Positions 7,107-23,319 of a DNA stretch of 28,525 bases are shown piece after piece. Every line of letters begins with the position of its first letter. Position 1 is the stretch's first letter. The notes beneath the pieces were generated by a model, which was not told the DNA's origin, did no database searches, and saw only the letters and a program-made list of their open reading frames with translations. Both the position numbers and the translations under genes were made by a program. This stretch comes from an uncultured bacterium (GTDB lineage: Bacteria; Verrucomicrobiota; Kiritimatiellia; RFP12; UBA1067): positions 1 to 28,525 of the forward strand of contig CACZAK010000066.1 in assembly GCA_902779075.1 (NCBI GenBank), given 5' to 3'.

Positions 7107-8240
7107 ATGAAAATCACTGACATCAAAATCTACACTCTCGACGCATTCCGCACCAACTGGGCGTTCATCAAGGTCGAGACTGACGAAGGACTCTACGGCT
7201 GGGGCGAGGCGACACTCGGAACACAGGAGATGGCGCTTGAAGGATGCGTAGCCGACTACAAGCGGCTCATCGTCGGACGCAATCCCCTCGAAGTCGAGAA
7301 AATGCTCTTCGAGGTCTATCGCGACAGCTACTGGAAGGGCGGCCCCGTGATGATGAGTGCGCTCGCCGGCATCGAAATCGCCTGCTGGGACATTGCCGGA
7401 AAGTACTACAACGTCCCGACGCATGCGCTCCTCGGCGGCAAGATGCGCGACAAAGTGAAGATGTATGCAAACGCATGGTTTGTCGGCGCGCGCGAGCCGG
7501 AGGATTTCGCCGTCGCCGCGAAGAAGGTGAAGGCGCTCGGGATCAAGGCGCTTAAGTGGGATCCGTTCGGCAAGGCGCACATGACCTTGACGCGGGAGGA
7601 GATGGGTCATGCCGTTGCTGTTGTCGGCGCGGTGCGCGAGGCGGTCGGACCCGAGATGGAGATATTGATCGAGTGCCACGGCAGGTTCAACCACTACACC
7701 GCCGTCGCCGCGTCGAAGGAACTTGCGCCTTTTAAGCCGATGCTCATGGAAGAGCCCCATAGCGCGGTGCCGATCGCGGCGGGCGAGAGGTTCTACGGAA
7801 TGTATGCATGGAACGACGTTCTCCGCCGGAACTGCGTGGACATCGCGCAGCCGGACATTTTCCACAACATGGGGCTTCTCACCTCGAAGAAGGTGGCGGC
7901 GATGTGCGAGGCCAACCATGTGCCTGTGAGCTTTCACAATCCGTCGGGCCCAATTTCCAACGCGGCTATTCTCCAGCTCGCGGCGACGACGCCGAACTTC
8001 CTCATACACGAGATGATGCTTACGGACGGAAGCTTCCGCAAGCTCGTCACGAACGAAAGTGTCAAGTTCGAGGATGGCTACCTCGTCATCAGCGACAAGC
8101 CCGGCCTCGGCATCGACGTGAACACTACACCGGGACGCTCACCGACATCCGTCCAAAGGGCGACACGTTCTACTTCTTCGACGGCCTCGACTGCGAACAC
8201 CCCGTCTTCTGATCGCCCGTTGCGCAATAGCGCAACATAA
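7107..8240 (+). CDS. Enolase-superfamily sugar-acid dehydratase (galactonate dehydratase-like), frameshifted C-terminus
   Basis: The protein resembles DgoD-type dehydratases of the mandelate racemase/muconate cycloisomerase group, which convert aldonates to 2-keto-3-deoxy acids. Visible active-site elements are KALKWDPFG (about 147-155), Glu189 and His191 in IECH, Glu215 in MEEP, Glu227 in AAGER, His277 in SFHNPSGP and Glu302 in LIHE. Two lesions stand out. First, only about ten residues separate MEEP from AAGER, where relatives have roughly 14 more, so one barrel helix seems deleted in frame. Second, after GIDVN the frame is lost: the correct ending HYTGTLTDIRPKG...CEHPVF continues in the -1 frame to a stop at 8212, consistent with loss of one C near 8123. 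The literal frame runs on to 8240 as Ser/Thr/Arg-rich residues. The gene is probably decaying, unless there are sequencing errors. Confidence 0.85.
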   Translation: MKITDIKIYTLDAFRTNWAFIKVETDEGLYGWGEATLGTQEMALEGCVADYKRLIVGRNPLEVEKMLFEVYRDSYWKGGPVMMSALAGIEIACWDIAGKYYNVPTHALLGGKMRDKVKMYANAWFVGAREPEDFAVAAKKVKALGIKALKWDPFGKAHMTLTREEMGHAVAVVGAVREAVGPEMEILIECHGRFNHYTAVAASKELAPFKPMLMEEPHSAVPIAAGERFYGMYAWNDVLRRNCVDIAQPDIFHNMGLLTSKKVAAMCEANHVPVSFHNPSGPISNAAILQLAATTPNFLIHEMMLTDGSFRKLVTNESVKFEDGYLVISDKPGLGIDVNTTPGRSPTSVQRATRSTSSTASTANTPSSDRPLRNSAT

Positions 8241-8250
8241 ATTTTCGCAG
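8219..8250 (+). repeat. Third, partial copy of the type-A element
   Basis: A perfect palindrome GTTGCGC-AATA-GCGCAAC (8219-8236) followed by AAATTTTCGCA matches the left part of the elements at 3339 and 9865. The matching TATAAT is not at the +60 position, where TTTATC stands. It lies just past the dehydratase's original stop, inside the frameshifted reading. As a strong hairpin followed by T-rich bases it could also help end the operon transcript. A weak 5-bp hairpin with a T-rich tail follows at 8259-8282. Confidence 0.6.
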
Positions 8251-8384: not shown

Positions 8385-9782
8385 GTGATTGGCAGAAAGA
8401 AAGAAATCCAAGAACTTGAAAATGCATACGCCGAGCGTGAATCGGAGTTCGTTGCCGTTTACGGAAGGCGTCGCGTCGGCAAGACCTACCTTGTCCGCGA
8501 GACGTTTTCCGGTCGATTGGCCTTTCAGCATGCAGGATTGAAGGACAAACCGACGATCATTCAACTTGATCGCTTTAGACAGTCGCTTGTGGAATGCGGA
8601 TTCAGGGAGTGCGGAGTTCTAAAGAACTGGTACAAGGCGTTTGACGCGCTGAAGAAGGTCATTGCGTCGAGTGACCTTCCCAAGAAAGTTGTATTCCTTG
8701 ATGAGTTGCAGTGGATGGATCGTCCGAATGCAAATTTCGTCTCTGCGCTTGAGAATTTCTGGAACGGCTGGGCTTCTGCGCGCAAGGATGTTCTTCTGAT
8801 TGTCTGCGGGTCCGCGAGTTCGTGGATATTGCGCAAGATCGTCTACAACAAGGAGGGTCTTCACAACCGCGTGACATACAGGATCCCGCTATGTCCGTTT
8901 TCGCTCGCGGAATGCGAAGCGTATGCAAGGGATCGCGGACTCGAATTTACGCGCCGCCAGCTGGCGGAGCTCTATATGATTCTTGGAGGTGTTCCATACT
9001 ACTGGCATTTTCTTAAACGCGGCAAGAGCGTTGCACAGAACATAGACGAGATGTTCTTTGCGAAGAGCGACAAGCTGGAAAACGAATTCGACGAGCTGTA
9101 TGCATCGCTTTTCCAGAGCCCGGAGCCCTACATTCGGCTGATTACGGCGCTTGCGACAAAGAAAGTCGGCATGACGCGGGAACGTCTTTCCTCGGCGTCA
9201 GGGGTTGCCGAGAGCGGCAAGATGACGCAATGCCTTGACGACCTCGACAGGTGCGGCTTCATTCGGAAGTATACGCCGCTCGGGAAGGCGAACCGTGGTT
9301 CGGTTTACCAGCTGATGGACAACTTCACTCTCTTCTATTTCTCTTTCATGGCTACGGGAAAGGGCGTGGATCGCCAGTACTGGTCGAAGCTGCAGGCGAC
9401 AAGAACCCATTCGACTTGGGCTGGGCTTGCATTTGAGCGCCTCTGTCTGCAGCATGTACGCGAGATAAAGCGGTCGTTGCAGATCGGTGGTGTATTGACG
9501 AGCGAACATGCATGGTATTCTCCTGCCGCGCAGATCGACTTGCTGATTGACAGAGACGACGGAATCATCAATCTCTGCGAAATGAAGTTTGCCGAGGGCA
9601 TGCATTCAATCTCACGACAGGAGGCGGATGATGTTCGGAGGAAGAAGATTGTGCTGAAGGACGAGACTGCGACTCGAAAGGCCGTATACGTCACTTATGT
9701 TACGACAGAGGGCCTTAAGCGCAATTCATACGCAAATGACGTCCAGTCCGAAGTGACGCTGGACGACTTGTTCTCGGAATAG
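8385..9782 (+). CDS. AAA ATPase with C-terminal DUF234 (PD-(D/E)xK-like) domain
   Basis: A 465-residue protein of the archaeal-type ATPase/DUF234 class. Walker A GRRRVGKT is at residues 27-34, Walker B VVFLDE at 102-107, and a sensor-like IVCGSASSW lies about residue 145. A winged-helix-like middle region (about 250-300, with LSSASGVAESGKMTQCLDDLDRCGFI) is followed by the DUF234 part, where Asp385 in AQID and Glu399-x-Lys401 in CEMKF form a nuclease-like PD-(D/E)xK pattern. No signal peptide is present. It has its own promoter and a strong RBS, so it is not simply the operon's last gene. A paralogue with the same layout lies at 16132-17547, again right after a catabolic operon. The biological role of this family is not established; defence or DNA transactions are guesses. 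Confidence 0.88.
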   Translation: MIGRKKEIQELENAYAERESEFVAVYGRRRVGKTYLVRETFSGRLAFQHAGLKDKPTIIQLDRFRQSLVECGFRECGVLKNWYKAFDALKKVIASSDLPKKVVFLDELQWMDRPNANFVSALENFWNGWASARKDVLLIVCGSASSWILRKIVYNKEGLHNRVTYRIPLCPFSLAECEAYARDRGLEFTRRQLAELYMILGGVPYYWHFLKRGKSVAQNIDEMFFAKSDKLENEFDELYASLFQSPEPYIRLITALATKKVGMTRERLSSASGVAESGKMTQCLDDLDRCGFIRKYTPLGKANRGSVYQLMDNFTLFYFSFMATGKGVDRQYWSKLQATRTHSTWAGLAFERLCLQHVREIKRSLQIGGVLTSEHAWYSPAAQIDLLIDRDDGIINLCEMKFAEGMHSISRQEADDVRRKKIVLKDETATRKAVYVTYVTTEGLKRNSYANDVQSEVTLDDLFSE

Positions 9783-9864
9783 CCCCTACTGGCCACTTGA
9801 CTACTATGCCCCTCATCTGACGTCAATAAAATTTGTCCGGGACTCCCCTTGCCCCCGCTCGCCC

Positions 9865-9930
9865 ATTGCGCAATAGCGCAACAGAAATTTTCGCAAAATA
9901 AAGTGGCGGCGGCATAAGTTTTGGTATAAT
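9865..9930 (+). promoter_or_regulatory. Type-A promoter/operator before the esterase pseudogene
   Basis: A near-perfect palindrome (9865-9882) is followed by ATTTT-CGC-AAAAT (9887-9899), AAAGTGGCGGCGG and the extended -10 TTTTGGTATAAT, with TATAAT at 9925-9930. Element order and spacing match 3339-3404 exactly, so the same regulator probably binds both. The start codon at 9984 is preceded by GGGAGGT (9973-9979), so this transcript has a leader, unlike the lactonase message. The rest of 9783-9864 shows no gene. Confidence 0.75.
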
Positions 9931-9983
9931 GCTCGTAAAAACTCGAGGTGGCATGGTGTCGCCCCGGCTTCCGGGAGGTAATT

Positions 9984-10439
9984 ATGCAACATATTTGCAA
10001 AGAAAAGTGGCAAAGCAAGGTTGTCTTCTTGCTTGCCGGCGCGGCATTCGCGCTGTTCGCGCTGGCCGTGCAGGCGTCGGACGAACCGTGGTTCGGGGCG
10101 CCGATTCCGGGGTCGGGATTAGAGGTCCCGTATGGCACCGATCCGCAGCAGACCGGCGATCTTTTCCTTCCTGCAAAGGTGACGTCCGAAACGCCTTTCG
10201 TCCTCAACATCCACGGCGGCGGCTGGAGCGCGATGTCTCGAAAGGACGCAGCTGGAGTTTCTGCGTTTCTTGTCGAGATGGGCTGCGCGGTCTATTCGAT
10301 TGACTATCGCCTTGCTAGCAAGGAGAACCCTTGGCCATCGTGTGGCGACGACTGCTTGAAAGCCGCAGAGTTCATTTTGCGCGGCAGACTTGCCGCGATA
10401 TTGCTGGAGAACCGAAAACCAATTTGGATTAGGGCGTGA
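9984..10439 (+). pseudogene. Truncated secreted alpha/beta-hydrolase esterase
   Basis: The reading has 151 residues: a signal peptide (basic start, then a FLLAGAAFALFALAVQA-type core), the motif WFGAPIPGSG, then the front half of an esterase with oxyanion-hole HGGGW at 77-81. It is about 90% identical in DNA, by eye, to 27582-27847, which encodes the esterase half of the fusion enzyme at 25962-28364. After FILRG the sequences diverge, and a lost base after IWI brings an early stop. The catalytic Ser, Asp and His of the intact copy are absent, so hydrolysis is not expected. The ATG at 9984 has a good RBS; the in-frame ATG at 9948 does not. The gene ends one base before the convergent regulator's stop codon, so the missing half was probably lost in a rearrangement at that junction. 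Confidence 0.85.
10122..10387 (+). repeat. Duplicated esterase segment, copy 1
   Basis: This segment matches 27582-27847 without gaps at a constant offset of 17460 bases. I count about 25 differences in 266 bases, most at third codon positions, with roughly five amino-acid changes. The pattern shows the two copies evolved under protein-level constraint before this one was truncated. Weaker similarity continues to about 10438. Confidence 0.85.
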
Positions 10440-10440
10440 G

Positions 10441-11649
10441 TTATCGTCGCAAGTTCTGGGCGCGGTAGTCGCGCATGGATATGCCGAAGTGGCGCCTGAA
10501 GAGGTTCTTCGGGTAGTTGGGGCTTGTCCATCCAAGACGGCGTGTGATCGATTCGATTGGGTCATCTGTCTCGCGGAGTAGGCGTTTGAGTTCCTTCAGG
10601 CGCACGGCTGTGATGCAGGAGAGTACGGATTCGCCGCGTACTTCCCTGAATCTGAGATCCATCAGTGCCCGCGAAACTTTGAGGTGCGCCTGTACGTCCT
10701 TGACGCCAATACCTCGTTTCGCGTTCCTGGCGATGAAAGCCAGTGCCTTTTGGACGAGCGGGCCTGCCGACGATTCGGCTACAGTCGTGGCGCGGCGGAC
10801 AATCTCGTTTTCACCGCGAACAATGACCGTATGCGAGGGGCGACTCGCCGCTTTGCTGCCACCCATCATTCGTTCCAGCGAGGCGGCAGCTTCCTTTCCT
10901 GCCAGCACGAAGTCCGGACGAATGCTCGACAGGCGTGGCGTCGCGTTTTCGCAAATCAGTTCCTCGTCATCGACGCCCAGCACCGCGACATCGCCAGGCA
11001 CTGAAAGCCCTGCGCTTTTGCACGCCAGCAGTGCCTCTTGCGCCACTGCATCGTCGGCGGCAAGGATGGCGGCAGGCTTCTCCATTCGGCGCAGCCATTT
11101 TGCCAGTTTCCCTCGCCGTGTCAGCGTGTCGCCGGCTGGACTGGACATGAATGTGACTGTTGGCCGGTCTCTGCGCGTCAGTTCCGCCTCAAAGCCCTCG
11201 CCACGAAGCCGCGACCATTCGCGCTGTCCCTCCGCCGGAATGAATCCAAACGACGCATACCGTCCCTGCGCGGCAAAATTCTTTGCGGCGTCGCGCCCGA
11301 TGGCGCTATTGTCGATGCGGACATGGATCGCGCCTGTCTTCCGAGATCCCAAGACGCTTGAAAAAGTTTCGACCGTTGCAAAAGGCACGGCGGACTCGGC
11401 AAGCACCTTGAACGCCTCCGGCGCATCGTCGTTCATGGCGACGATGAAACCTGATGCCTTGTGCGCGATGGCCTGTCTAACATACTCGCCTGTGAATTCT
11501 CTGTTCGAGCGGACGATTGAGAGGCTCCATTCGCCTCTCTCTGCGATGTGTGCAAATACGCCGCGAAGCACCGAAGGCCCGAAATTGCTCTCCATCGAGA
11601 CTACGGCGATGACGCGTGGGATGCGACGGCTTATGGACTTTCTTTTCAC
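10441..11649 (-). CDS. XylR-like regulator: LacI-type sugar-binding plus AraC-type HTH
   Basis: A 402-residue paralogue in type of the regulator at 2165-3310. Residues about 12-285 form a LacI/PBP1-like domain, with AAILAADDAVAQEALLAC and VPGDVAVLGVDDEELICE blocks and PRLSSIRPD. The last 105 residues are an AraC-type DNA-binding domain (VKDVQAHLKVSRALMDLRF, then DDPIESITRRLGWTSPNYPKNLFRRHFGISMRDYR). The start is GTG 11649. On the minus strand an extended -10, TGATATACT (TATACT 11662-11657), lies exactly seven bases before it with no RBS, so the message is probably leaderless. The gene diverges from the acetyltransferase-MFS-SIS operon, its likely target. Its 3' end abuts the truncated esterase. 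Confidence 0.9.
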   Translation of the reverse strand: MKRKSISRRIPRVIAVVSMESNFGPSVLRGVFAHIAERGEWSLSIVRSNREFTGEYVRQAIAHKASGFIVAMNDDAPEAFKVLAESAVPFATVETFSSVLGSRKTGAIHVRIDNSAIGRDAAKNFAAQGRYASFGFIPAEGQREWSRLRGEGFEAELTRRDRPTVTFMSSPAGDTLTRRGKLAKWLRRMEKPAAILAADDAVAQEALLACKSAGLSVPGDVAVLGVDDEELICENATPRLSSIRPDFVLAGKEAAASLERMMGGSKAASRPSHTVIVRGENEIVRRATTVAESSAGPLVQKALAFIARNAKRGIGVKDVQAHLKVSRALMDLRFREVRGESVLSCITAVRLKELKRLLRETDDPIESITRRLGWTSPNYPKNLFRRHFGISMRDYRAQNLRR

Positions 11650-11670
11650 GCAGCACAGTATATCAAATTC

Positions 11671-11760
11671 GTTATCCGATATGTGAGAAAATCTTATTGT
11701 GAAAGATAGGCGGTTTCGATTGCGATTCTCTGGGAGTTCGCATATAATTTACGTCAAAGG
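11671..11760 (+). promoter_or_regulatory. Type-B promoter/operator of the acetyltransferase operon
   Basis: A -35-like TTGCGA (11720-11725) and TATAAT (11743-11748) are 17 bases apart. Upstream lie two similar blocks, GTGAGAAA (11683-11690) and GTGAAAGA (11699-11706), 16 bases apart, then GATAGGCGGTTT. The whole segment aligns without gaps to 17625-17715. It sits in the divergent gap next to the regulator at 10441-11649, so it probably holds that regulator's operator. Confidence 0.75.
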
Positions 11761-11773
11761 ACGGGACAGAGTC

Positions 11774-12985
11774 ATGAAAGCATGTTTTAATAAGGAAAAC
11801 TTTGAGTTTCGCGGCGTTGCTCCGAAGGTCGGGCACGAAATCAGGGCATTGTCGGAAGCGCAGTTTCTCGCTGGGGAGGATGCGAGGGGCGCAATCGTTG
11901 TACTGGAGCCGGAAACTCAGATAGGCAAGGTGCAGATAGATGCACTTGTGGCGCGTGACGCATTAGGTTTCGTGAGCGACTTCTCTGAAAATCGCTTTGA
12001 GAAACCAGACGAGATACCGATTGTTGCAGTTGGCGACTTAAAGGGTCTTGCGGCGATCTTCGTTTCGCCGCGTTCAGGCGTAAGGCTGCGAACTCTCGCC
12101 GGCACTGGCGCATTGAAAATCGGGGTTGAAGAGACGCTTGTCGCGATTACGCCAATGCCGCCGCAAAAACGAGACAGGCGCAACGACCCTGTAATCGGCA
12201 AGACCGATATTCTTGCCGCGCTTTCGGCAGTTGGCGTAAAGAAGGGCGATACTTTGCTTGTTCATTCGTCGCTGTCGGCGTGTGGAAAGATTGACGGCGG
12301 CGCGAAGACGATCATCGATGCGATTATTGAGACGATTGGGCCTGACGGCAACTTCTTTGTGCCGACGTTCCAGCGTTCGGAGTGCTACCTTAATGGAATA
12401 AACAAGCGGTGGGACCATCGTCCGAGCGACTTCCGCGACAGGTCAAGCGAGGCCGTGCGCTGGGTCGGGACGCTGCCGCTGGAATTTATGCGACTTTTCC
12501 CCGACGCACCGAGGGGCGTCCACATTTCGCATTCGTGGGCGGGATGGGGGCCTTCTGCGGCAGAGGTGTTGTCGCGTCAAACGGAGGACGAGCCACCGTT
12601 TTCTGACAATTCATGTCCGATGTCCGTCAAGGATATGGGAGGCAAGATTCTACACTTCGGAAGCCCCGTGGGGCATACGTCGTTCGTGCACTGCTTCGAG
12701 ACGCACTTCAACCTGCCGGGTCTTGGCCCGTCGTATTACGACGTGCGGCTTGCGGACGGCACGATTACATGGAAGTTCGTGCCGAAGGGTCTGCCGGGTC
12801 CGCGCGAGTTCTACTCCAAGGACGAGAACGCGCGGTTCTTCCGCGAGGCTGTTGCGCGAGGTCTTGAGATACGCCACGAGAGGCTTGGTGTCGGCGAGTT
12901 GAAACTTATAGACTGCCGCCAGTTCTGGGAAATCGGCTCCGCGCTCGTCACGGAAGATCCGAGAATCGTCATAGGAGACCTGTAG
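11774..12985 (+). CDS. AAC(3)-like N-acetyltransferase with an extra N-terminal domain
   Basis: A 403-residue cytoplasmic protein. Residues from about 140 onward match the aminoglycoside 3-N-acetyltransferase/YokD family: GDTLLVHSSLSACGKIDGGA (His164, Ser165-166), GPDGNFFVPTFQ, and the catalytic-region HTSFVHCFE at 301-309. These enzymes move acetyl from acetyl-CoA to an amine. The first 130 or so residues are not part of that family. They look like a small alpha/beta domain with a GAIVVLEPE strand, ALGFVSDFSE and IPIVAVGD, faintly like a protease-associated domain. The ATG at 11774 follows the promoter's TATAAT; the GTG at 11699 lies upstream of that promoter and is rejected. The next gene begins two bases after its stop. 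Beside a sugar regulator and importer, an amino-sugar substrate is more likely than an antibiotic. Confidence 0.82.
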   Translation: MKACFNKENFEFRGVAPKVGHEIRALSEAQFLAGEDARGAIVVLEPETQIGKVQIDALVARDALGFVSDFSENRFEKPDEIPIVAVGDLKGLAAIFVSPRSGVRLRTLAGTGALKIGVEETLVAITPMPPQKRDRRNDPVIGKTDILAALSAVGVKKGDTLLVHSSLSACGKIDGGAKTIIDAIIETIGPDGNFFVPTFQRSECYLNGINKRWDHRPSDFRDRSSEAVRWVGTLPLEFMRLFPDAPRGVHISHSWAGWGPSAAEVLSRQTEDEPPFSDNSCPMSVKDMGGKILHFGSPVGHTSFVHCFETHFNLPGLGPSYYDVRLADGTITWKFVPKGLPGPREFYSKDENARFFREAVARGLEIRHERLGVGELKLIDCRQFWEIGSALVTEDPRIVIGDL

Positions 12986-12986
12986 C

Positions 12987-14222
12987 GTGAAAGGCGGATA
13001 CAAGTGGCTTTTGCTTGCGCTTCTGTCGCTGGCGTATTTCTTCAGCCAGGCAGACCGCGTATTGTTCGGACTTCTCACGATTCCGATTCAGGAAGAGTTG
13101 CACCTCACCGACCTGCAGATAGGGTTCGTCAATACTGCGCTTTTCATGACGCTCGCCTTTACCGTCCCGATTGCCGGAATCCTCGGTGACAGGTTCAACC
13201 GCAAGTGGGTGATTACTGTCGCGCTCATGTTCTGGTCGCTGATGACAGCGGTGACTGGCCTTGTCGGAGGGATGTGCGCTCTTGTGTTCTTCCGCTCGAT
13301 CCTGACCGGCGGAGGCGAGGCATTCTACGGGCCTAGCGCGTACGCTCTTCTTGCCGCACACCACAAGGAGACGCGCTCGTTCGCGCTGGCCGTGCACCAG
13401 GCCGCGCTCTATCTCGGACTGATGTTTTCCGGCGCACTCGTCGCGTGGGTGCTAAAGGCGGTTGGCGGCTGGCGTGTAGTCTTTTGGGTGTTTGGCGGCT
13501 CTGGCTTTCTGCTTGGAGTTTCGTTTATATGGCTATTGAAGGACGGAGAACGGACTTCATCAGGCGGCGAGGAACGGGTAGGCGGAACTTTCCGCGCCGG
13601 ATGCCGCGCGTTCTTCTGTTGCCCCACCGTGGTCTTGAACGCAATCGGGTTCATAGCGATCTGCTTTGCGAACAACGCATACATCAGCTGGGCGCCGAAG
13701 TTCGCCGCGCAGAAGTTTGGCCTTACAGTCGGGGCGGCGGGCAACGGCACAATGCTCTACCACCATCTCGCGGCATTCATCGCGATTCTTGTCGCAGGCT
13801 ATGTTACGGACGCTGTGATCCTGCGGGGGCATCCGCGCTTCCGCCTTGCTTTGCAGTCGGTTGCGATGCTTCTCGGTGCGCCGATGCTCGTATGGTTCGG
13901 ATTTGCTCCGACCGTTGCCTCGTGCTTCGCCGCTACGACGCTATACGGCGTGTTCCGTGGAATGTACGAGGCGAACACGCAGGCTTCGGCGTTCGATGCG
14001 GTAAGACCGGAGCATCGTTCCACTGTTGTCGCCCTTGCAGACCTTCTGGCGATGCTTATCGGCTCGCTGTCGCCGCTCCTCATCGGCGCAATGTCAGACC
14101 GCATGGGGCTCGCGGGATTCGAGCGCGGCTTCGCCCTCATGGGCGGCGCGTATGTCGTCGGCGCACTCGCCATGGCTTCCGCGTTCTTTTTCACTTTCAA
14201 CAAAGACAGAATAACGGAGTAG
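12987..14222 (+). CDS. MFS transporter, paralogue of the lactonase-operon importer
   Basis: A 411-residue inner-membrane protein with twelve hydrophobic segments. The first helix carries FFSQADRVLFGLL and the loop GILGDRFNRKW, followed by GEAFYGPSAYALLAAHHKETRS, then ISWAPKFAAQKFG and VTDAVILRGHPRFR in the second half. These positions mirror the transporter at 4443-5657, so the two share ancestry. The GTG start lies one base past the acetyltransferase stop, indicating one transcript and coupling. A longer cytoplasmic loop rich in Gly, Glu and Ser (about 185-205) separates the halves. Import of the sugar or amino sugar used by its neighbours is likely; the substrate is unknown. Confidence 0.9.
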   Translation: MKGGYKWLLLALLSLAYFFSQADRVLFGLLTIPIQEELHLTDLQIGFVNTALFMTLAFTVPIAGILGDRFNRKWVITVALMFWSLMTAVTGLVGGMCALVFFRSILTGGGEAFYGPSAYALLAAHHKETRSFALAVHQAALYLGLMFSGALVAWVLKAVGGWRVVFWVFGGSGFLLGVSFIWLLKDGERTSSGGEERVGGTFRAGCRAFFCCPTVVLNAIGFIAICFANNAYISWAPKFAAQKFGLTVGAAGNGTMLYHHLAAFIAILVAGYVTDAVILRGHPRFRLALQSVAMLLGAPMLVWFGFAPTVASCFAATTLYGVFRGMYEANTQASAFDAVRPEHRSTVVALADLLAMLIGSLSPLLIGAMSDRMGLAGFERGFALMGGAYVVGALAMASAFFFTFNKDRITE

Positions 14223-14234
14223 ATTCAATTTCAG

Positions 14235-15944
14235 ATGAATATTAATATCTCCAACACCGCGCGGGCGAAAGCCCGTGACTTTATCGAAAACGAAAAGCAG
14301 TTCCATCTAGGTTTTCTGCCAACGGAACAGTCGAACCCCATAACTGCGACACTCGAGCACGACTTCAAGCGTTCAACTTTAGCGGGTGTGCAGTGCCTAC
14401 AGCGCGGCGACAGGCAGATTCCAATCACGATGCGACATGTCTTTGCCGGACATCGCTTCGCCGCGCTCGTCGATTCGATGGTCGAAACCCTCACAACTCC
14501 TCCACTCCCACACTCCCCCACTCCACGAATAATCTTCTCAGGTTGTGGCGCGACAGGGCGGCTTTCCATTCTTCTTGAATCAATGTGGCGCGACTTCTTC
14601 CACCGCCGCGCGGCGGAGCTGACGGACGAGGAACGCGCCCTCGCCGACCGCTCTGCCTCGATAATGACAGGCGGCGACTTTGCGCTCATCAAGAGCGTTG
14701 AGTTCTTCGAGGACTTTGCGGAAGGTGGCCGCCGCCAGGCCGCCGCGCTCAATGTTGGCGAGGGCGATACCTTTGTCGCCATAACGGAGGGCGGCGAAAC
14801 GTCGTCTGTGCTTGGAACGCTGAAATATGCTGCCGAACACGGCGCGAGGTGCTTTCTCGTGTTCAACAACCCCGCAGATCTTTTGCGCAAGCATCTTGAC
14901 CGCTGCCGCGAGGCAATAGACAATCCGAAGGTGACGGTGATAGACCTCTATTGCGGTTCAATGTCGCTTGCCGGTTCCACGAGGATGCAGGCGACAAGTT
15001 CCGAACAGCTCTTGTGTTCGTGCGCCCTTGAAGCCGCGCTCTGCCGTGTCCTGCCGCGTTTTGCCAAGGAGACGGCTGACGACTACACGCTGGCGTTCGA
15101 GAACCTTCTTGCGGGGCTGGAATCTCCCGAAGGCCGCGCCGAGATTGTGAAGGCAATAGAGTTCGAGAAAGGCGTTTACGACAAGCACGGACGCATAACG
15201 TACCTTGCCGACAAGTGCATGCTCGACCTCTTCACGGACAACACGGAGCGCAGTCCTACGTTCATGCTGCCGCAACTGCGTTCCAGCTGCGAAAGGCATC
15301 TCGCGCAATCGTGGGCTTTTGTGAAGAACCCGCTCCACCCGACCGAAGAGTGTTGGAGCGAAATGATGCGCCGTCGCCCGCGCTGTCTTGAGTTCACGGC
15401 TGACGATGCCCGCGCACTCGGGATGCCGCACTGCTTTATCGACAACCCTCCGGCAATCAAGTATTCAGACCTCATAACCTACATGATTGGCAACGAATCC
15501 GCGCCGGAGAGAATAGATGGTTACGAACGCGCGGCGGCGGTCGTGCTGCGCGTTCCCGGCGAGACGCCTGATTTCGTAGCGGCGGCTGATCGCCTCGCGG
15601 CGGCGTGGCCTGAAAAGACGGAGTTCCGCTTCGACTTCCCGATAGCGGACTCGCCGCTTGAAATCTGGAAGCACCTTGCCGTAAAGCTTGCGTTCAACTG
15701 CCTTTCGACGGGCACGATGACGGCAATGGGGCGCGTCGCTGGCAACTGGATGAGCTGGGTGTCGATTTCCAACAAGAAGCTTATTGACCGGGGCATACGG
15801 CTTATATCCGAACTTGGCGCGATTCCCTACGACGAGGCGGCGGAGAGACTTTTCGCCGCCGACGAGTGGGTACAGTCGCAGGACTGGACAGGAAAAGAAG
15901 AGCCTTGCGCCGTCCAGGTCGCATTGCGACAACTTGAAAGGTGA
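14235..15944 (+). CDS. Double SIS-domain protein, MurQ/GCKR-like
   Basis: A 569-residue protein related to N-acetylmuramate-6-phosphate etherase (MurQ) and glucokinase regulatory protein. The N-terminal tag FLPTEQSNPITATLE resembles the MurQ entry motif. SIS domain 1 has GCGATGRLS at 103-111, then GDTFVAITEGGETSSVLGTLKYA and an AGSTRMQATSSEQ block. A second SIS-like half follows and ends with the MurQ-like CLSTGTMTAMGRVAGNWM and ISNKKLIDRGIRLI. MurQ has about 300 residues, so this is the double-length GCKR-type layout. It may bind or convert a sugar phosphate, by ether cleavage, isomerisation or regulation. A proline-rich piece (TPPLPHSPTP, about 88-97) just before the phosphate loop comes from low-complexity DNA and is unusual. 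It is third in the operon, twelve bases after the transporter. Confidence 0.82.
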   Translation: MNINISNTARAKARDFIENEKQFHLGFLPTEQSNPITATLEHDFKRSTLAGVQCLQRGDRQIPITMRHVFAGHRFAALVDSMVETLTTPPLPHSPTPRIIFSGCGATGRLSILLESMWRDFFHRRAAELTDEERALADRSASIMTGGDFALIKSVEFFEDFAEGGRRQAAALNVGEGDTFVAITEGGETSSVLGTLKYAAEHGARCFLVFNNPADLLRKHLDRCREAIDNPKVTVIDLYCGSMSLAGSTRMQATSSEQLLCSCALEAALCRVLPRFAKETADDYTLAFENLLAGLESPEGRAEIVKAIEFEKGVYDKHGRITYLADKCMLDLFTDNTERSPTFMLPQLRSSCERHLAQSWAFVKNPLHPTEECWSEMMRRRPRCLEFTADDARALGMPHCFIDNPPAIKYSDLITYMIGNESAPERIDGYERAAAVVLRVPGETPDFVAAADRLAAAWPEKTEFRFDFPIADSPLEIWKHLAVKLAFNCLSTGTMTAMGRVAGNWMSWVSISNKKLIDRGIRLISELGAIPYDEAAERLFAADEWVQSQDWTGKEEPCAVQVALRQLER

Positions 15945-15968
15945 AAGTAGTAAAAACTACATAAGTGG

Positions 15969-16020
15969 TAATCGGCTTGGATTCGATTAAATAGTTGAAA
16001 TAAGCCGATTATAATTTTAA
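15969..16020 (+). terminator. Likely intrinsic terminator of the acetyltransferase-MFS-SIS operon
   Basis: A perfect 10-bp inverted repeat, TAATCGGCTT (15969-15978) and AAGCCGATTA (16002-16011), is followed by a T-rich stretch. The 23-base loop is longer than typical, so an operator role is an alternative. The surrounding 15945-16131 is markedly AT-rich compared with the coding DNA. Confidence 0.5.
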
Positions 16021-16073
16021 GTTGGCAAATATATGAATATTGTTGATTTTTTAAACATTTGTCGTGTGCTTAT

Positions 16074-16124
16074 TTGACTTGAATACTATATATTTGCTAT
16101 AATTGCGCCGTTTTAAGACGGAGG
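16074..16124 (+). promoter_or_regulatory. Promoter and RBS of the second AAA/DUF234 gene
   Basis: TTGACT (16074-16079) and TATAAT (16098-16103) are 18 bases apart. ACTATAT at 16085-16091, in the spacer, repeats the operator half-site seen at 8328. GGAGG (16120-16124) is seven bases before the ATG at 16132. CCGT/ACGG (16108-16121) may form a small hairpin touching the RBS. Confidence 0.72.
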
Positions 16125-16131
16125 CAATGAT

Positions 16132-17547
16132 ATGATTGGACGCAAAAAAGAGTTGATGAGGTTCAGGGAGGCCGAGGAGTCCGACCAATCCGAATTTCTT
16201 GCCGTATATGGGCGGCGGCGTGTTGGTAAGACCTTCCTGATAAGGCAGGCATTTTCAAATCATTTTACATTCGCGCATACAGGCATTGCAAAAGGATCAA
16301 TGGCGGAGCAATTGGCAAATTTTCAGGATTCACTTGTCGAATATGGCTATGAAGACATTCCTGCTCCGCAGACATGGCTTGAGGCGTTTCGCCGTTTGAG
16401 AAAGGTCATCTCAGAGTCGAAGGACATCCGCAAGATCGTGTTCATAGATGAAATGCCATGGATGGATACGCCTCGTTCAAACTTCACGGCGGCACTGGAG
16501 CACTTCTGGAACGGATGGGCCTCGGCTCGTAGCGATGTTGTGTTGATTGTCTGTGGTTCTGCCACAAGCTGGATTATCAACAAGGTCATAAGGAACAAGG
16601 GCGGGCTTCATAACCGCGTAACGGGGAAAATCCATCTTCGGCAGTTTTCGCTGAAGGAGTGCGAAGAGTATGCGGAGGCGCGGCATCTGGGGATGTCGCG
16701 GAGCCAGATTGCCGAAGCGTACATGGTTCTGGGCGGAGTCCCGCACTATTGGTCTTTTCTGAAGAGAGACGCCAGCCTGGCCCAGAACATCGACAGGATG
16801 TTCTTCTCCGAGGACGGGGAACTGAAGGACGAGTTCCACGAGTTGTACGCTTCGCTTTTCAAGCGCAAGGCGCCATACGAAGCCATCGTCACTGCTCTTG
16901 CCGCGAAAAAGGGGGGCTTGACGCGCGAGGAACTTATTGCACATACTGGGATGGCGAACAATGGCCGCTTGACGGAACGCCTTGCGGAACTTGAACAGTG
17001 TGGATTCATCAGGAGCTACCATGTCGTTGGCGCATGCGCCAGCGCAATCGTCTATCAGCTCATGGACAGTTTCACGCTCTTTCACTTCAACTTCATCAAG
17101 AACAACCAAAGGCGCAACGAACGGTTCTGGTCGTCTTCGCTCGGCTCTCCGATGTACCACGCATGGCGAGGCCTCTCCTTCGAGCGGCTGTGCCTTCAGC
17201 ACGTCGGCAAGATAAAGGACGCCATCGGCATCGGAGGCGTCGACGCGGAAGTTGGATGCTGGCGGCATGTTGCGAACGAGCGCTGTCCGCAGGGAGCGCA
17301 AATCGACCTTGTGATCGACCGTGCCGACAACGTGGTTGACCTTTGCGAAATGAAATGCACCGATTCGCCATATCGTGTTTCGGAATCAGACATTGCGGAG
17401 ATGAAGCGGAAATGCGAAGTCTATCGCACTGTCACGAACACGCGCAAGTCGATTCATACGCTTCTCGTGTCCGCGAGCGGCACGGAGCCGGGGATGTATC
17501 GCAACGAGATTAACTGCGAAGTCACGCTCGATGCGCTGTTTGCGTAA
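16132..17547 (+). CDS. AAA ATPase with C-terminal DUF234 domain, second paralogue
   Basis: A 471-residue protein colinear with the one at 8385-9782. Walker A GRRRVGKT is again at 27-34. Walker B reads KIVFIDEMPWMD, and the sensor-like block is IVCGSATSW. The middle region has LIAHTGMANNGRLTERLAELEQCGFI. The DUF234 part carries Asp392 in AQID and Glu406-x-Lys408 in CEMKC. Conservation of both the ATPase and nuclease-like residues in two diverged copies argues that both activities matter. The extra length lies in an insertion before the AQID motif that includes two Cys and two His (WRHVANERCPQG region). It has its own promoter and RBS. Its function is unknown; its position after a second catabolic operon repeats the first module. 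Confidence 0.88.
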   Translation: MIGRKKELMRFREAEESDQSEFLAVYGRRRVGKTFLIRQAFSNHFTFAHTGIAKGSMAEQLANFQDSLVEYGYEDIPAPQTWLEAFRRLRKVISESKDIRKIVFIDEMPWMDTPRSNFTAALEHFWNGWASARSDVVLIVCGSATSWIINKVIRNKGGLHNRVTGKIHLRQFSLKECEEYAEARHLGMSRSQIAEAYMVLGGVPHYWSFLKRDASLAQNIDRMFFSEDGELKDEFHELYASLFKRKAPYEAIVTALAAKKGGLTREELIAHTGMANNGRLTERLAELEQCGFIRSYHVVGACASAIVYQLMDSFTLFHFNFIKNNQRRNERFWSSSLGSPMYHAWRGLSFERLCLQHVGKIKDAIGIGGVDAEVGCWRHVANERCPQGAQIDLVIDRADNVVDLCEMKCTDSPYRVSESDIAEMKRKCEVYRTVTNTRKSIHTLLVSASGTEPGMYRNEINCEVTLDALFA

Positions 17548-17624
17548 TTTTGCAGTGTGAAAGTCTGTCTACCGGGAATTGACGCTGCGGCACTACTCGA
17601 GAGATGATGCGAGAAAAATCGGCT

Positions 17625-17715
17625 GTTATTGGATATGTGAGAAAGTCTTGCCGTAAAAGATAGGCGGTTTTGGTTGCGTTTTCACGGCGGGTCGCATATA
17701 ATGTGCGTCAGAAAG
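17625..17715 (+). promoter_or_regulatory. Type-B promoter/operator before the secreted-enzyme row
   Basis: This segment aligns without gaps to 11671-11760: GTGAGAAA (17637-17644), a GTAAAAGA block 16 bases later, GATAGGCGGTTT, a -35-like TTGCGT (17674-17679), a 17-base spacer and TATAAT (17697-17702). The shared sequence predicts control by the same regulator, encoded at 10441-11649. Bases 17548-17624 show no gene. Confidence 0.75.
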
Positions 17716-17744: not shown

Positions 17745-19736
17745 ATGAAAATGAAAGCAACGAAATCTAATTCCGTCAGGATGCTTTGCAAGGAAATCAC
17801 GCTTCTGACTTTTGCTATCGTTTCCATTTCCGCCCTCGGCGCGACGGACATCACCGCCTACATGCGCTCGCTTGGGAGCGGGTATTCCGTTTCGGGCGGA
17901 GCCTTGCTCAGCGCGACCCCTGCCGCCAACGCGGTTGACGGTGTGGGATTCGAAAGAATTGACGGTGGAGCGGTCCGCTTCCCAAGATTGACGAGCAATG
18001 GAAGCGGGGGCTACAAAATCAACCCCGCTGAACTGAATTACAAATTTCTTGACGGACGCACTGCGATATTGACGGCGTTCACGGTGTATCGATACAGACG
18101 AGCGACATATAGCGATGTCGGGGACAAGGCCGACCTTGCGCGAACACCCAAGCGTTTCAAGCTTCTGGCGAGGAACGGCGACAGCGACGCTTGGACGACG
18201 CTCTATGAGACGGCGGAGGATGCCGTCTGGGGGAAGGACATCGCCTCAAACCGGTTCGAGATTGCGGAGGCGAACCGGAGACCATACGCCCAGTATCGTT
18301 TCGCACTCGATCTCACAAACGCGACAAACGAGTATTATGTGGCAAACACCCAAGGCAACGACGACTACTACTCCTACCACGAACTCGTCCTTGAAGGCGC
18401 AATGACGCTTTCATGGACTGGAGACGCGAACAATACGTGGAGCGGGTCTGATGCCAACTGGTCGAACGGCGCTGAGAGCCTGGCCTGGCAGCCCTCGGCG
18501 ATGGCGGTGTTCGGTGGCGGGAACGATGTTGCCGTGAGCGGCACACAGAATGTGAGCGGCATCAAGGTCGGGTCGGCAGGGGCCTGTTCGATTTCGGGCG
18601 GGGCGCTCGCAATTGGGGACCCCGCGTATTTTGACATCGCGTCATCGACCACGATCTCGTCCACGATAACCGACGCGAACGATGCAGATTCGGCAATGCG
18701 GTTTGACATTCCGGCGGTTACCAACGTCCTTGACTGCCGCAACGGCTCTTTTTTGCCGCGCAGTGAAACAAACTCCAAGACAGGCGCGGCTGTCCTCTGT
18801 TGGCCAGGAAGGTCGCTTCGAGACCTTGTCTCCGTGGTGTCGTGCGGGTTCAAATATGGTGGAGCATCGGCCAGCAGTCCGAGCATCGAATTCTTCGCGA
18901 ACGACTTCACGACGGCGTCATTCCAAGTGCAGTATTACACATCCACCCCATATGGCATGGCGGTCAAGGTTGAGTTGACGCAAGTAGGAAGCGACATCTA
19001 CGCCAGGGCGGTCTATGCCAAAAGGAAAGACATTGCAAAGCCGCAGGATCCACTCAATTTTGACTCCGCGACTGGGACATCGGCAAAGAACATTCTGGAT
19101 GACGACCACAATACGGACACCTATGGCGTCCGCAACATCAAACTTGCATTCCGCGAAGATCTGAACCTCAACGGCGCATTCACAAGCGAGAGGGATTTGG
19201 TGGTCAATGGCAATACGCTTTCGTTTGGTGCCCCATCGCTGGCGTTTGCGCAGGATGTTTCAGGAACTGGTACCTTGAAATTCGCCCCGGCGAGCGGCTC
19301 GCAGAATGTGGCCTTCGGCGGCAGCTGCGGTTGCGACGGCGGCATGATCCTCTCCGGAGCCACAACCGTTACGGTCTCCGACGCAGCCCCCTTTGCCAGC
19401 GGCATGCCGCTCGCGATGGAGGACGGCGCGACGCTCTCGGTCGGTACGGTCGCGGCCTGCACCGTCGGTGTTGCTACCTTCTCCGGAACAACAACGATTG
19501 CCGTTGCGAAAGGCGCGACTATTTCCTTCGATTCAGTCTCGTTCGCGGACGGTGCCATTGTCAATCTCGTCCTTTCGGGAAGCGCGGCTGGTCATGGGGT
19601 GCGCATTGGAACGACGGCGTCACTGTCCGCAGAGGAACTGGCTCACTTTGTTTGCAATGGGAAGCCTGTTAAGGTGCAACTTGAAGATGGCTGGCTCAAT
19701 GTCGTCGGGAATGGTCTTGTGCTATTCGTCAGATAA
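17745..19736 (+). CDS. Secreted protein, discoidin-like domain plus autotransporter-strand-like repeats
   Basis: The 663-residue product starts with basic residues and a hydrophobic core (TLLTFAIVSISALGA), a Sec signal peptide. Residues about 35-220 resemble an F5/8 type C (discoidin-like) carbohydrate-binding fold: paired strands, FTVYRYRR, RFKLLARNGDSDAWTTLYE, and a YAQYRFALD block near the end. A segment WTGDANNTWSGSDANWSNG (about 225-245) is typical of the autotransporter-associated strand-repeat proteins of PVC bacteria. The rest is Gly-, Ala-, Ser- and Thr-rich strand repeats (DLVVNGNTLSFG, GMILSGATTVTVSD). No PEP-CTERM anchor is visible. ATG 17745 follows AAGGAA (17735-17740); the ATG at 17751 is possible. 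GTG 17670 lies upstream of the promoter and is rejected. A surface glycan-binding role is inferred. Confidence 0.75.
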   Translation: MKMKATKSNSVRMLCKEITLLTFAIVSISALGATDITAYMRSLGSGYSVSGGALLSATPAANAVDGVGFERIDGGAVRFPRLTSNGSGGYKINPAELNYKFLDGRTAILTAFTVYRYRRATYSDVGDKADLARTPKRFKLLARNGDSDAWTTLYETAEDAVWGKDIASNRFEIAEANRRPYAQYRFALDLTNATNEYYVANTQGNDDYYSYHELVLEGAMTLSWTGDANNTWSGSDANWSNGAESLAWQPSAMAVFGGGNDVAVSGTQNVSGIKVGSAGACSISGGALAIGDPAYFDIASSTTISSTITDANDADSAMRFDIPAVTNVLDCRNGSFLPRSETNSKTGAAVLCWPGRSLRDLVSVVSCGFKYGGASASSPSIEFFANDFTTASFQVQYYTSTPYGMAVKVELTQVGSDIYARAVYAKRKDIAKPQDPLNFDSATGTSAKNILDDDHNTDTYGVRNIKLAFREDLNLNGAFTSERDLVVNGNTLSFGAPSLAFAQDVSGTGTLKFAPASGSQNVAFGGSCGCDGGMILSGATTVTVSDAAPFASGMPLAMEDGATLSVGTVAACTVGVATFSGTTTIAVAKGATISFDSVSFADGAIVNLVLSGSAAGHGVRIGTTASLSAEELAHFVCNGKPVKVQLEDGWLNVVGNGLVLFVR

Positions 19737-19749
19737 GGAGTTTTTAAGA

Positions 19750-21339
19750 ATGAGAAACTGTAACAGGATGGTCTGGACCGTTGTTGCACTAATTCCGGCT
19801 TTGCTTTTTGCCGAGCAGCAACTGACGGCAGGCTCCACGATGTCTTGCCCTCAAACTATGACAACCGTTCGGCCTGTGGCGACGGACGAGGCGCTGATAA
19901 ACCCTGACATGGGGTTTGTCTATTACAAGTATTCCAACAGGCTCTGGGCCTACGGCATCAACACGCCGGAAAACGACACGCTCGACTGGTTCCCCGGTTG
20001 CTCGACGGTCTATCTGCGCGTTCTCTGGAACGACATCGAACCGGAGGAAGGCGAGTACCGTTGGGATCTCTTCGATTCTGTCGCGCAGAACTGGATTGCC
20101 AAGGGCAAGAAAATCGCGATCCGCATCATCTGCTGTAACCAGACGGAAAACGCCACGCCGCAGTTCGTGAGGGATGCCGGCGCGAAAGGGTTCTGGTTTG
20201 AATACAAGACCCATGCCGCGAAAGGTGCAAGATTCCCTCCACGTTGGGAGCCAGTGTATGACGATCCCGTGTTCCTCGCGAAGCTGGAGAGCTTCGTCAA
20301 GGCGTTCGCCAGAAGATATGACGGCGACCCAAGCGTCGCGTTTGTCGATGTCGGCAGTTTCGGAATATACGGCGAGGGGAATTTATATGGAACCACGCAG
20401 CAGTATCTGGGCGACCCTGAACACCGCGCCGAATTCATGCGTCTCGCAAAGCTGCATCTCGACCTGTGGAAACGGCTTATGCCCAATACCTACCTTGTGG
20501 TTTCCGACGACATCGAGGGTGGATGGAGCCGCGAGGAGGACCCAGACCTGATGCGCTACTGCCGCGAAAACGGCATCGGATTCCGCGACGATTCCATCTT
20601 TTGCTTTCCCATTCCTGGGACGAACAAGAGCTGCCCGTTCGCCTACTGGGCGCACGACGGCTGGGCGCGGAAGTTCGCGCCGACGCTCCCCGTAGTCGTA
20701 GAGACAGGCCATTACACAAGCGTGTGCGGCACGCCGAAATGGGACGACGAGGAATATGTGCGCTGCGTGGAGGCGTATCAGGCGTCGTACATGTCGATCC
20801 ATGACTTCCCAGACGTTCACCTGAAGCTCTGCCGCGACGCAATCGACCGCATCAACAGAATCATTGGATACCGCTTTGAGCTTCGTGAGGTGTCTTATCC
20901 GGAGGAGGTGAAGATTGGCGAGAAGGTCGAAATCAAATCAATCTGGGTGAATGCGGGCGTTGCGCCCAAGACGAAGAGCGCGGCACTCGCGTGGTCGCTC
21001 CTCAATCCTGATGGCTCCGTCGCCTGGTGCGTGACGGACAACTCGTTTGACTTCAAGTCTCTCGAACCGAAGCTGAAGGGCGTGGAGAAGCCGCGCAATG
21101 TTGCGACGCCCTGCCGCTTCGGGTATTTGAAGCGCATTCCGGAGCCGGACAATTGCGTCGTGTGGGCGCGTGATGCCAAGCGGACTTTCCCTGACACTTT
21201 CGCGCCGCTGAAGCCGGGAGTCTATGCCCTCGCCGTGTCCGTCGGATCGTGGCAGGGTACGCCTGAAATCGCGTTGCCGCTCGAAGGGCAGATAGGCGCG
21301 ACGCGGCGGTATGCGGTCGGAAAAATCAATGTCAAGTAG
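19750..21339 (+). CDS. Secreted glycosidase-like barrel protein (DUF4832-like)
   Basis: A 529-residue exported protein with signal peptide MVWTVVALIPALLFAEQQ. After INPDMGFVYY it has a TIM-barrel-like order: TVYLRVLWNDIEPEEGEYRW, KKIAIRIICCNQ, then VDVGSFGIYGEGN with Glu209. The last motif matches the GxxGxxGE block of DUF4832-type barrels, and a later ASYMSIHDF strand fits too. A beta-sandwich follows from about residue 385 (IGEKVEIKSIWVNAGVAP...). These proteins resemble clan-A glycosidases, but no activity is assigned to the family as far as I know. The ATG at 19750 lies nine bases after AAGGAG (19735-19740), which overlaps the previous stop, so the two genes are cotranscribed. Its signal peptide closely resembles that of the hydrolase at 21692. 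Confidence 0.75.
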   Translation: MRNCNRMVWTVVALIPALLFAEQQLTAGSTMSCPQTMTTVRPVATDEALINPDMGFVYYKYSNRLWAYGINTPENDTLDWFPGCSTVYLRVLWNDIEPEEGEYRWDLFDSVAQNWIAKGKKIAIRIICCNQTENATPQFVRDAGAKGFWFEYKTHAAKGARFPPRWEPVYDDPVFLAKLESFVKAFARRYDGDPSVAFVDVGSFGIYGEGNLYGTTQQYLGDPEHRAEFMRLAKLHLDLWKRLMPNTYLVVSDDIEGGWSREEDPDLMRYCRENGIGFRDDSIFCFPIPGTNKSCPFAYWAHDGWARKFAPTLPVVVETGHYTSVCGTPKWDDEEYVRCVEAYQASYMSIHDFPDVHLKLCRDAIDRINRIIGYRFELREVSYPEEVKIGEKVEIKSIWVNAGVAPKTKSAALAWSLLNPDGSVAWCVTDNSFDFKSLEPKLKGVEKPRNVATPCRFGYLKRIPEPDNCVVWARDAKRTFPDTFAPLKPGVYALAVSVGSWQGTPEIALPLEGQIGATRRYAVGKINVK

Positions 21340-21345
21340 GCAAGA

Positions 21346-21639
21346 ATGAACGGCCAAGGAAAGTCAAAGCTGATGACGAAGTTCGTAAAACTTGCGGCTT
21401 CGGCAACGCTTGCCTCTGTCGGCATGTTTGCCGCCGACGCCGCGCCTTCGGTGTCAAGCCGGATTTTGACAGACTACGGCAGGTCGGTGCAGCGCGACGC
21501 ATACGGCAGTGCGCTTGCAATGATCGAGGGGATTCTTGGATATCTCGATTTCAACACCGAGGTCGTCGATTTCGGGATTACAAAGGACGGCTATGGCATC
21601 GAACCCCTATCGAGGGATTCGCAGTTCCGTCCGGAATAA
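21346..21639 (+). CDS. Small exported protein of unknown function
   Basis: A 97-residue reading with a Sec-type signal (FVKLAASATLASVGMFAADA) and a mature part of about 65 residues that I do not recognise (SRILTDYGRSVQRDAYG, then FNTEVVDFGITKDGYGIE). ATG 21346 has a weak AGG upstream; ATG 21373 follows AAGGA at 21356-21360 with a long spacer. It begins six bases after the previous stop, in the same transcript. The abrupt end suggests a remnant of a larger secreted enzyme, but a genuine small protein cannot be excluded. Confidence 0.5.
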   Translation: MNGQGKSKLMTKFVKLAASATLASVGMFAADAAPSVSSRILTDYGRSVQRDAYGSALAMIEGILGYLDFNTEVVDFGITKDGYGIEPLSRDSQFRPE

Positions 21640-21691
21640 AATGTTTCAATGTTGTCTTTGTCAGCTATATGCTCGTGAGGAGTCCTGCAAG

Positions 21692-23263
21692 ATGAAAAAC
21701 CGAGGTAAGATGTTTTGTTCTATTGCCACATTAGTTCCAGCATTGCTATTTGCCGAATCGCATCCGATTGAGGACGCCGAGAAAGTTTTGGTTCCTGGCA
21801 CAGTCGAAATCGTGGCGGACTTTACCGGAACGAACCCGCCGACGCGTGTATTGAGGGATTTCCTAACGCCCTGCGACATGTCCAAAGGAGGGGAGGTGTC
21901 CTTCGACATGTTCTGCGAAGATATTGGACAATTCTCGAAGTTCATGGTCTATTTCGGCAGTGGGGCTGGATGGTATATCACATATTTCAGTCCGGAGAAG
22001 TGTGGCGAGTGGGAGCATCGTCGCATTCGCGTAGGGAGAAAAACAACTTCATCCGAGGGCGTTGCCGCAGGATGGGATAAAGTTGACAGGATTCGCTTTT
22101 CATTGTCCCGCGCCGGTACAAGCAAGTCCATAATCAGACTGCGCGATATACGCTATAGCAGTCATGCAGAAGAAGACTCCCCTGAGGTGGTCGCCACTCG
22201 TAGGGTCAAGGCGCATGAACGACTTCTGTCAATGCCCGGCAAGGCAGGCGAACGGCGTTTCGCTTGGTGTCATACAGAATATGGACCGTTCAATGGCGAC
22301 TGGGACAAGGGAGCAAAGGAACTTCGCGACTGCGGATTCACGGACATCATCGTGAACTTGTGCTGTGGCGCCAATGCCGCCTACGAAAGCGCGGTAATGG
22401 AGCCGGCGCTGTCAGTCGCCAAATACGGCGACATGCTGGAACCATGCAAAGAGGCATGTCGCAAATACGGACTGAAGCTCCACGTGTGGCGACTATGCTG
22501 GCGTGTCAGGTGGACGACAAAGGAGGCCGTTGACCGGTTGGAGTCAGAAGGGCTTCTCCAGCGCAATATCAGGGGTGGTGTCGAGCGTGACTGGCTCTGC
22601 CCATCGAATCCACGTAATCGTGAGCGAGAGATTGCCGCTATGATGGAGCTCGTCGGGAAGGGAGTTGACGGCATACACTTTGACACGATCCGTTATTCCA
22701 GTCACGACACTTGTTTCTGCGACGGATGCAGGGAACGCTTCGGGCAGGTCGTTGGCCGCCAGCTTCCTGATGACTGGGCGAAGATTGTTCAGAACGACCC
22801 AGAGCTGGCGGCGACATGGGCTAAGTTCAGGGCTGACAATATCTCCGCCGTTGTTAGAGCTGTGGTGGAGCGTGCTCGTGCCAAGCGTTCTGACATAGAG
22901 ATATCCGCCGCCATCTTCAACACTCCGAATGATGACTACCGTGGTCGCGCCCAGGACTGGATGGGCTGGTGTCGCGAAGGACTTCTTGATTTCGTCTGCC
23001 CGATGGACTACACAGGTTCCACGGCCATGCTTCGCGGCATGTTGCGCATGCAAAGGGGTTATCAGGGAAAGACAAAGTTCTATCCCGGTCTCTGCATAAG
23101 CCTCTGGCCTGTTGACGGACGGGAGGAGCAGCGCCTTGCGGAGCAGATCGAAGCGGTGCGCGAGGAGGGCTTCGGCGGCTTCACGCTCTTCCAATACGAA
23201 AGCAAGACGCTTCCGCTCTTCAAGATACTGCGAGAAGGGCCGCTCGCGCCCATCGGGAATTAA
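21692..23263 (+). CDS. Secreted GHL10-like glycosyl hydrolase with N-terminal beta-sandwich
   Basis: A 523-residue exported protein. The signal peptide (SIATLVPALLFAES) is followed by a beta-sandwich of about 150 residues (VEIVADFTGTNPPTRV... WEHRRIRVG... IIRLRDIRYSS) that resembles a carbohydrate-binding module. The C-terminal barrel fits the glycosyl hydrolase-like 10 (GHL10) family: KYGLKLHVWRLCWRV, GVDGIHFDTIRY with Asp331, then ISAAIFNTPNDDY, DFVCPMDYT and GFGGFTLFQYES. GHL10 members are thought to cleave glycans, but few are characterised. ATG 21692 lies nine bases after GAGGAG (21677-21682); the in-frame reading from 21536 runs through the previous gene and is rejected. Cys-rich loops (DTCFCDGCRERF) may bind metal or form disulphides after export. 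Confidence 0.8.
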   Translation: MKNRGKMFCSIATLVPALLFAESHPIEDAEKVLVPGTVEIVADFTGTNPPTRVLRDFLTPCDMSKGGEVSFDMFCEDIGQFSKFMVYFGSGAGWYITYFSPEKCGEWEHRRIRVGRKTTSSEGVAAGWDKVDRIRFSLSRAGTSKSIIRLRDIRYSSHAEEDSPEVVATRRVKAHERLLSMPGKAGERRFAWCHTEYGPFNGDWDKGAKELRDCGFTDIIVNLCCGANAAYESAVMEPALSVAKYGDMLEPCKEACRKYGLKLHVWRLCWRVRWTTKEAVDRLESEGLLQRNIRGGVERDWLCPSNPRNREREIAAMMELVGKGVDGIHFDTIRYSSHDTCFCDGCRERFGQVVGRQLPDDWAKIVQNDPELAATWAKFRADNISAVVRAVVERARAKRSDIEISAAIFNTPNDDYRGRAQDWMGWCREGLLDFVCPMDYTGSTAMLRGMLRMQRGYQGKTKFYPGLCISLWPVDGREEQRLAEQIEAVREEGFGGFTLFQYESKTLPLFKILREGPLAPIGN

Positions 23264-23319
23264 ACAAGTGGCTCCCACCGTATAGCGGTCAGGTGCCCAT
23301 CGTGAATCGGGAAAATGAA

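Follow-up and report, generated by a model that had tools for sequence, protein, structure and literature searches.

The closest described relative of the regulator studied here is XylR of Escherichia coli, an activator of sugar operons that recognizes direct-repeat half-sites in front of them and that likewise joins a LacI/periplasmic-binding-type sensor to an AraC-type DNA-binding domain. AraC-family direct-repeat operators have half-sites that lie in the same orientation about two helical turns apart, as they do here; in araI the half-site spacing is 21 bases, which differs from the period of 22 bases in our locus and of 21-23 across its lineage. A Bacteroidota polysaccharide utilisation locus also brings a regulator, a transporter and glycan-active enzymes together. 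Regulons are seldom known for uncultured gut and rumen bacteria. According to one report, direct-repeat binding is confined to few regulators, mostly of the AraC family (PMC9723621), and a limited literature search surfaced no publication on such operators in this lineage.

In the window, by which we mean the whole stretch of 28,525 nucleotides that was analysed, the regulator at 10441-11649 has two Pfam domains that score 97 and 51.2 bits, above their cut-offs, and it is thus of the XylR type. Its best PDB matches are 4fe4 and 4fe7, both "Xylose operon regulatory protein", over residues 23-399; similarity to the E. coli protein is low (92 bits), the target genes differ and the ligand presumably does too. 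Compared with a polysaccharide utilisation locus, the window has an MFS transporter and two putative transcription units, and the 19 window proteins scanned, which include one other regulator (2165-3436), gave no SusC/SusD-type Pfam match. The preliminary description had proposed that a single sugar sensor controls both the import and metabolism of a product and the extracellular enzymes that release it. The part of this proposal in which the adjacent regulator reads both copies of a repeated promoter element is well supported by sequence comparison, but the operator anatomy had been partly misread. We consider it likely, from the sequence comparisons below, that this regulator governs a two-unit regulon and that each copy supplies one of the units with its operator and core promoter. 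The kind of system is already known, and the window is a further example of it. Coordinates are given in Table 1.

Table 1. Features of the regulator, of the two putative transcription units and of their regulatory regions.
Feature	Position	Strand	Basis and details
XylR-type regulator	10441-11649	-	Pfam: Peripla_BP_3 and C-terminal HTH_18 (AraC-type)
-10-like TATACT, putative own promoter of regulator	11657-11662	-	sequence, predicted -10 position; upstream flank 22/40 vs G001
Element layout	columns: operator 1-40, -35 50-55, -10 73-78		
Operator copy 1	11671-11710	+	half-sites TTATCC 11672-11677 and TTATTG 11694-11699, 22 apart; 33/40 vs copy 2, 28/40 vs G001
Acetyltransferase-operon promoter	11720-11748	+	-35 TTGCGA 11720-11725, 17-base spacer, -10 TATAAT 11743-11748
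Antibiotic_NAT-family acetyltransferase	11774-12985	+	Pfam; 75-79% orthologues in relatives
MFS transporter	12987-14222	+	Pfam
SIS-domain protein, MurNAc-6-P etherase/GKRP-like	14235-15944	+	Pfam; NCBIfam below cut-off (116.6 vs 168)
Terminator-like inverted repeat	15969-16011	+	sequence; TAATCGGCTT/AAGCCGATTA, then TAATTTT
AAA ATPase gene (ATPase_2) between units	16132-17547	+	Pfam
Operator copy 2	17625-17664	+	half-sites TTATTG 17626-17631 and TTGCCG 17648-17653, 22 apart
Enzyme-row promoter	17674-17702	+	-35 TTGCGT 17674-17679, 17-base spacer, -10 TATAAT 17697-17702
Enzyme row as a whole	17745-28364	+	
Enzyme row, first gene	17745-19736	+	no Pfam
Enzyme row, DUF4832/GH42-like	~19750-21339	+	
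Enzyme row, ORF	21346-21639	+	
Enzyme row, GHL10	~21680-23263	+	
Enzyme row, GH29 fused to GH28	23293-25965	+	
Enzyme row, GH39 and BD-FAE esterase	25962-28364	+	

When the window was compared with itself, 11671-11756 and 17625-17710 were identical at 67 of 86 positions without a gap, so the gapless match of about 90 bases described earlier for 11671-11760 and 17625-17715 holds over 86 nucleotides. Dinucleotide-shuffled versions of copy 1 (n = 500), compared with the window on both strands, reached a mean of 39.2 and a maximum of 45 of 86. The string GATAGGCGGTTT, previously noted in both copies, is indeed identical in the two. By part, agreement between the copies is 33/40 for the operator, 6/6 for the -10 and 10/17 for the spacer, and the similarity ends at the edges of the element, with 10/40 in each 40-base flank. 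A search of the window yielded these two copies and no others, an Rfam scan gave nothing at gathering scores for the element, and a pattern scan of viral contigs gave no match.

To place the element in related genomes, we used the regulator to scan a genome collection and obtained two loci, one at 70% identity (L001, in genome G001, isolate RUG10619, where we take RUG to stand for rumen) and one at 41% (L002). In G001 the regulator is divergent from an acetyltransferase orthologue (79%), after which an MFS gene begins, and the orthologous intergenic region, which was found via the protein, matches each window copy at 58/86 positions without gaps. Across the two window copies and G001, 52 columns are invariant, and an intergenic identity of 58/86 beside proteins at 70-79% would imply selection. 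In the 40-base flank towards the regulator, copy 1 matches G001 at 22/40, but copy 2 matches copy 1 at 10/40 and G001 at 9/40, and thus copy 2 holds the block only.

The same orthologue bears on how the operator is built. In copy 1, copy 2 and G001 the half-sites are spaced 22 apart by sequence. The operator is probably a direct repeat of the AraC type whose period is 22 bases. The preliminary description had instead pointed to paired GTGAGAAA-like blocks 16 bases apart. The second of these blocks reads GTGAAAGA in copy 1 and GTAAAAGA in copy 2 and is lost in G001. Pairing at 16 bases is thus not conserved, and the G001 orthologue rules out the repeated GTGAGAAA blocks as the operator.

We then asked how general the repeat is upstream of related regulators. 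The first set comprised 30 upstream regions, after three redundant ones were dropped and the window was added, and a 6-of-7 repeat at spacing 22 was present in 14 of the 30 against 4.0 expected, the maximum at any spacing in 200 shuffles being 12. Spacing 30 was also enriched in this set (12/30 vs 3.7 expected). The second set consisted of 40 further regulators in listing order, of which 3 were redundant and dropped, leaving 37. Here spacings 21, 22 and 23 were found in 12-13, 13 and 14-15 regions, against about 6 expected; the highest single-spacing count, 15, stays under the shuffle maximum of 16, but the three spacings sum to 39, and no triple of spacings exceeded 32 in 300 shuffles. In a control on 3' flanks (n = 29), the triple sum was 18 against 13.6, which is not significant, and spacing 21 alone occurred in 10/29 against 4.5 expected. 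The pattern TTGNNG-N16-TTGNNG, on either strand, was present in 10/30 first-set regions, where 0.2 were expected, and in 1/37 of the second set, which indicates that the period is general and that the letters are proper to the nearer subfamily. Such a direct-repeat rule would let the operators of many related sensors be predicted, and as a lineage-wide rule it is a more interesting by-product than the regulon.

Matrices built from these operators were used to ask how well each copy fits. A matrix covering columns 1-29, built on the two window copies and that of G001, matched 13 of 28 homologue regions at p<=0.05, against 1.4 expected, with 11 of the 13 sharing the window orientation; on the second set the same three-copy matrix matched 4/37 against 1.9 expected. 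In the reverse direction, matrices from 10-11 homologue operators rank copy 2 first and copy 1 second in the window, with a wide gap to the remainder, but their operators were partly picked by likeness to the window, which makes this comparison partly circular. We also made a non-circular matrix of 8 operators picked by spacing pattern alone, leaving out G001 and the G003:C51 site described below. Over about 57,000 window positions it ranks copy 2 first (10.9, with 7.9 for the runner-up) and puts copy 1 in seventh place (3.6), and with the pattern letters removed neither copy is in the top 12. The same operator is thus found at both units and in the regulator's own intergenic region, with copy 1 only seventh by the non-circular matrix.

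Could the element instead be a generic promoter or a dispersed genome repeat, tied to no one regulator? Both copies do contain a sigma-70-like core promoter, which is what that reading would expect, and the preliminary description had itself named a generic repeat as the outcome that would undo its proposal. We built a profile, R1, from the three copies (two from the window and one from G001) and ran it on 143 relatives of G001 with stricter filters, scoring no more than 31 candidates per genome. In the 6.1 Mb of G001 it found the genome's own site (E 5e-22), which matches by construction as R1 contains it, and no second R1 site. The next-best match over the 143 genomes has E 0.0057, and 53 of the 143 have a match at E<=1, near the chance expectation. 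With no second site in G001, the element is not a generic repeat as far as that genome shows; rather than many copies there is one in G001. Together with the two copies in the window and the lack of an Rfam match, this makes a generic promoter or dispersed repeat highly improbable. An early pattern search of G001 and G002 had given four 3-mismatch matches in G001 against six control matches, which is noise.

The copies could also be the trace of a promoter-region duplication without present common control, the row perhaps being under another regulator. The single site in G001 is consistent with this, as is other duplicated DNA in the window (276 nt at 90%), but conservation between the copies is uneven and tracks the operator and the -10, and in the operator models built from homologues copy 2 scores no worse than copy 1, so we regard this as unlikely. 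Alternatively, two different but related regulators might read overlapping operators, one per unit. Matches to the regulator are plentiful, occurring in 116 of the 143 genomes and in many of them at least 13 times, and the related gene run in G003 adjoins a different regulator. Within the window, however, the only other regulator among the 19 proteins is 2165-3436, which has a different type of operator with TTGCG pairs 23 apart, and control by two regulators is in our judgment quite improbable. A single regulator for both units is likely.

The core promoters had been described as TTGCGA or TTGCGT, a 17-base spacer and TATAAT, and these are present in both copies. A consensus promoter scan called 11720-11748 and left copy 2, whose -35 is weaker, uncalled. 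The regulator does border copy 1, as had been stated, with its gene start 21 bases away. If transcription starts near column 85, the operator would span about -84 to -45, an activator-like position ahead of a weak -35. A regulator dimer would bind both half-sites, which face the same way, and, once ligand occupies the LacI-like domain, would activate the two promoters from a position directly before the weak -35. In the opposite direction the operator would share bases with the -35 region of the promoter that serves the regulator, which may therefore control itself. The enzyme row would have its own promoter because a terminator-like hairpin and an intervening gene for an AAA ATPase set it apart from the first unit. 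The hairpin, which would close off the first unit from the genes downstream, is missing from the terminator-scan output, and the AAA ATPase gene is preceded by a promoter-like site at 16074-16103 in the promoter scan.

Of 161 genomes in the order, 3 contain acetyltransferase orthologues at E<=1e-40. In G003 a run on one strand encodes an MFS protein (53%), a SIS protein (80%), a DUF6259 protein, a large ORF with an autotransporter-type PATR repeat, the acetyltransferase (77%) and a DUF4832 enzyme that is 52% identical over 491 aa to that of the window row, with about 0.3-0.5 kb between the acetyltransferase and DUF4832 genes. The regulator divergent from this run is a different one (35%), and there is no R1 match within the run. 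G018 carries, on one strand, a 1,085-aa protein with no Pfam match, the acetyltransferase (75%), the SIS protein (82%), an FAD oxidoreductase and a GH127 protein. From the co-located orthologues in G003 and G018 we conclude that genes of both units belong together in relatives, though they do not share the operator seen here. The 1,085-aa protein of G018 and a 1,237-aa neighbor in G003 were considered as counterparts of the first protein of the enzyme row, but they are not homologues. Elsewhere in G003, a weak R1 match to columns 1-38 only (G003:C51:4926-4963; E 0.135, or 0.0025 for the 67,920 bases searched) lies just in front of the best homologue of the regulator in that genome (43%) and ends 22 bases before the first aligned codon. 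At L072:1443-6187 this closest G003 homologue, with the conserved operator, is divergent from a 1,132-aa ORF (no Pfam) and a sugar transporter.

The GH29, GH28, GH39 and esterase domains of the row suggest a pectic or fucosylated glycan. The nearest NCBIfam family to the GH28 domain is the alpha-D-galacturonidase BT4155, at 488 bits against a cut-off of 800. Among the relatives' matches listed for the GH29-GH28 fusion, either half is covered and none spans both. The acetyltransferase is not assigned as an aminoglycoside 3-N-acetyltransferase, as it scores 87.6 bits against the NCBIfam AAC(3) cut-off of 270. If the regulon is as proposed, the function and substrate of the acetyltransferase, the SIS protein and the DUF4832 enzyme would be tied to one glycan through the shared sensor. 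The 276 nucleotides duplicated at 10122-10397 and 27582-27857 are an esterase (BD-FAE) domain; the duplicate adjoining the regulator is truncated, and the other is fused to the GH39 domain in the enzyme row.

A second cassette, type A (TTGCGCAAT...GCAACA), is present at 3333-3407, beside the XylR-type regulator 2165-3436, and at 9859-9933, upstream of the esterase fragment; its copies are 79% identical over 3340-3407 and 9866-9933. TTGCG-type pairs 22-23 apart were found in 8 of 10 homologues of regulator 2165-3436, although the pattern was chosen after the homologues had been read, and the 8 include near-identical groups of two and of three. Tentatively, the many XylR-type sensors of this lineage may each read their own variant of a 21-23-base repeat, which would make their regulons readable from sequence, and distant operons may join by gaining an operator-plus-promoter block, as would have happened twice here (type A and the 86-base element, type B).

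An AAA ATPase gene ends about 80 bases before each second copy (type A at 9866 and type B at 17625). The two AAA ATPases, 8385-9782 and 16132-17547, are 49% identical, and their family has as many as 17 matches in a single related genome; the latter has relatives at 84-86% in G010 and G013, with similarity ending at the gene ends. A 37-nt repeat (8213-8249 and 9859-9895) flanks the first gene. Insertion of the AAA ATPase as the means of spreading promoter copies is unsupported: the second gene lacks a flanking repeat (19/30 at best), and 1 of 30 homologous loci (L143, 24/30) exceeds the shuffle range, the others reaching at most 22 and the shuffles up to 22. The end of the mandelate-racemase-like gene at 7107-8240 seems to be out of frame and, judged by eye, its likelier C-terminus is at 8212 in another frame.
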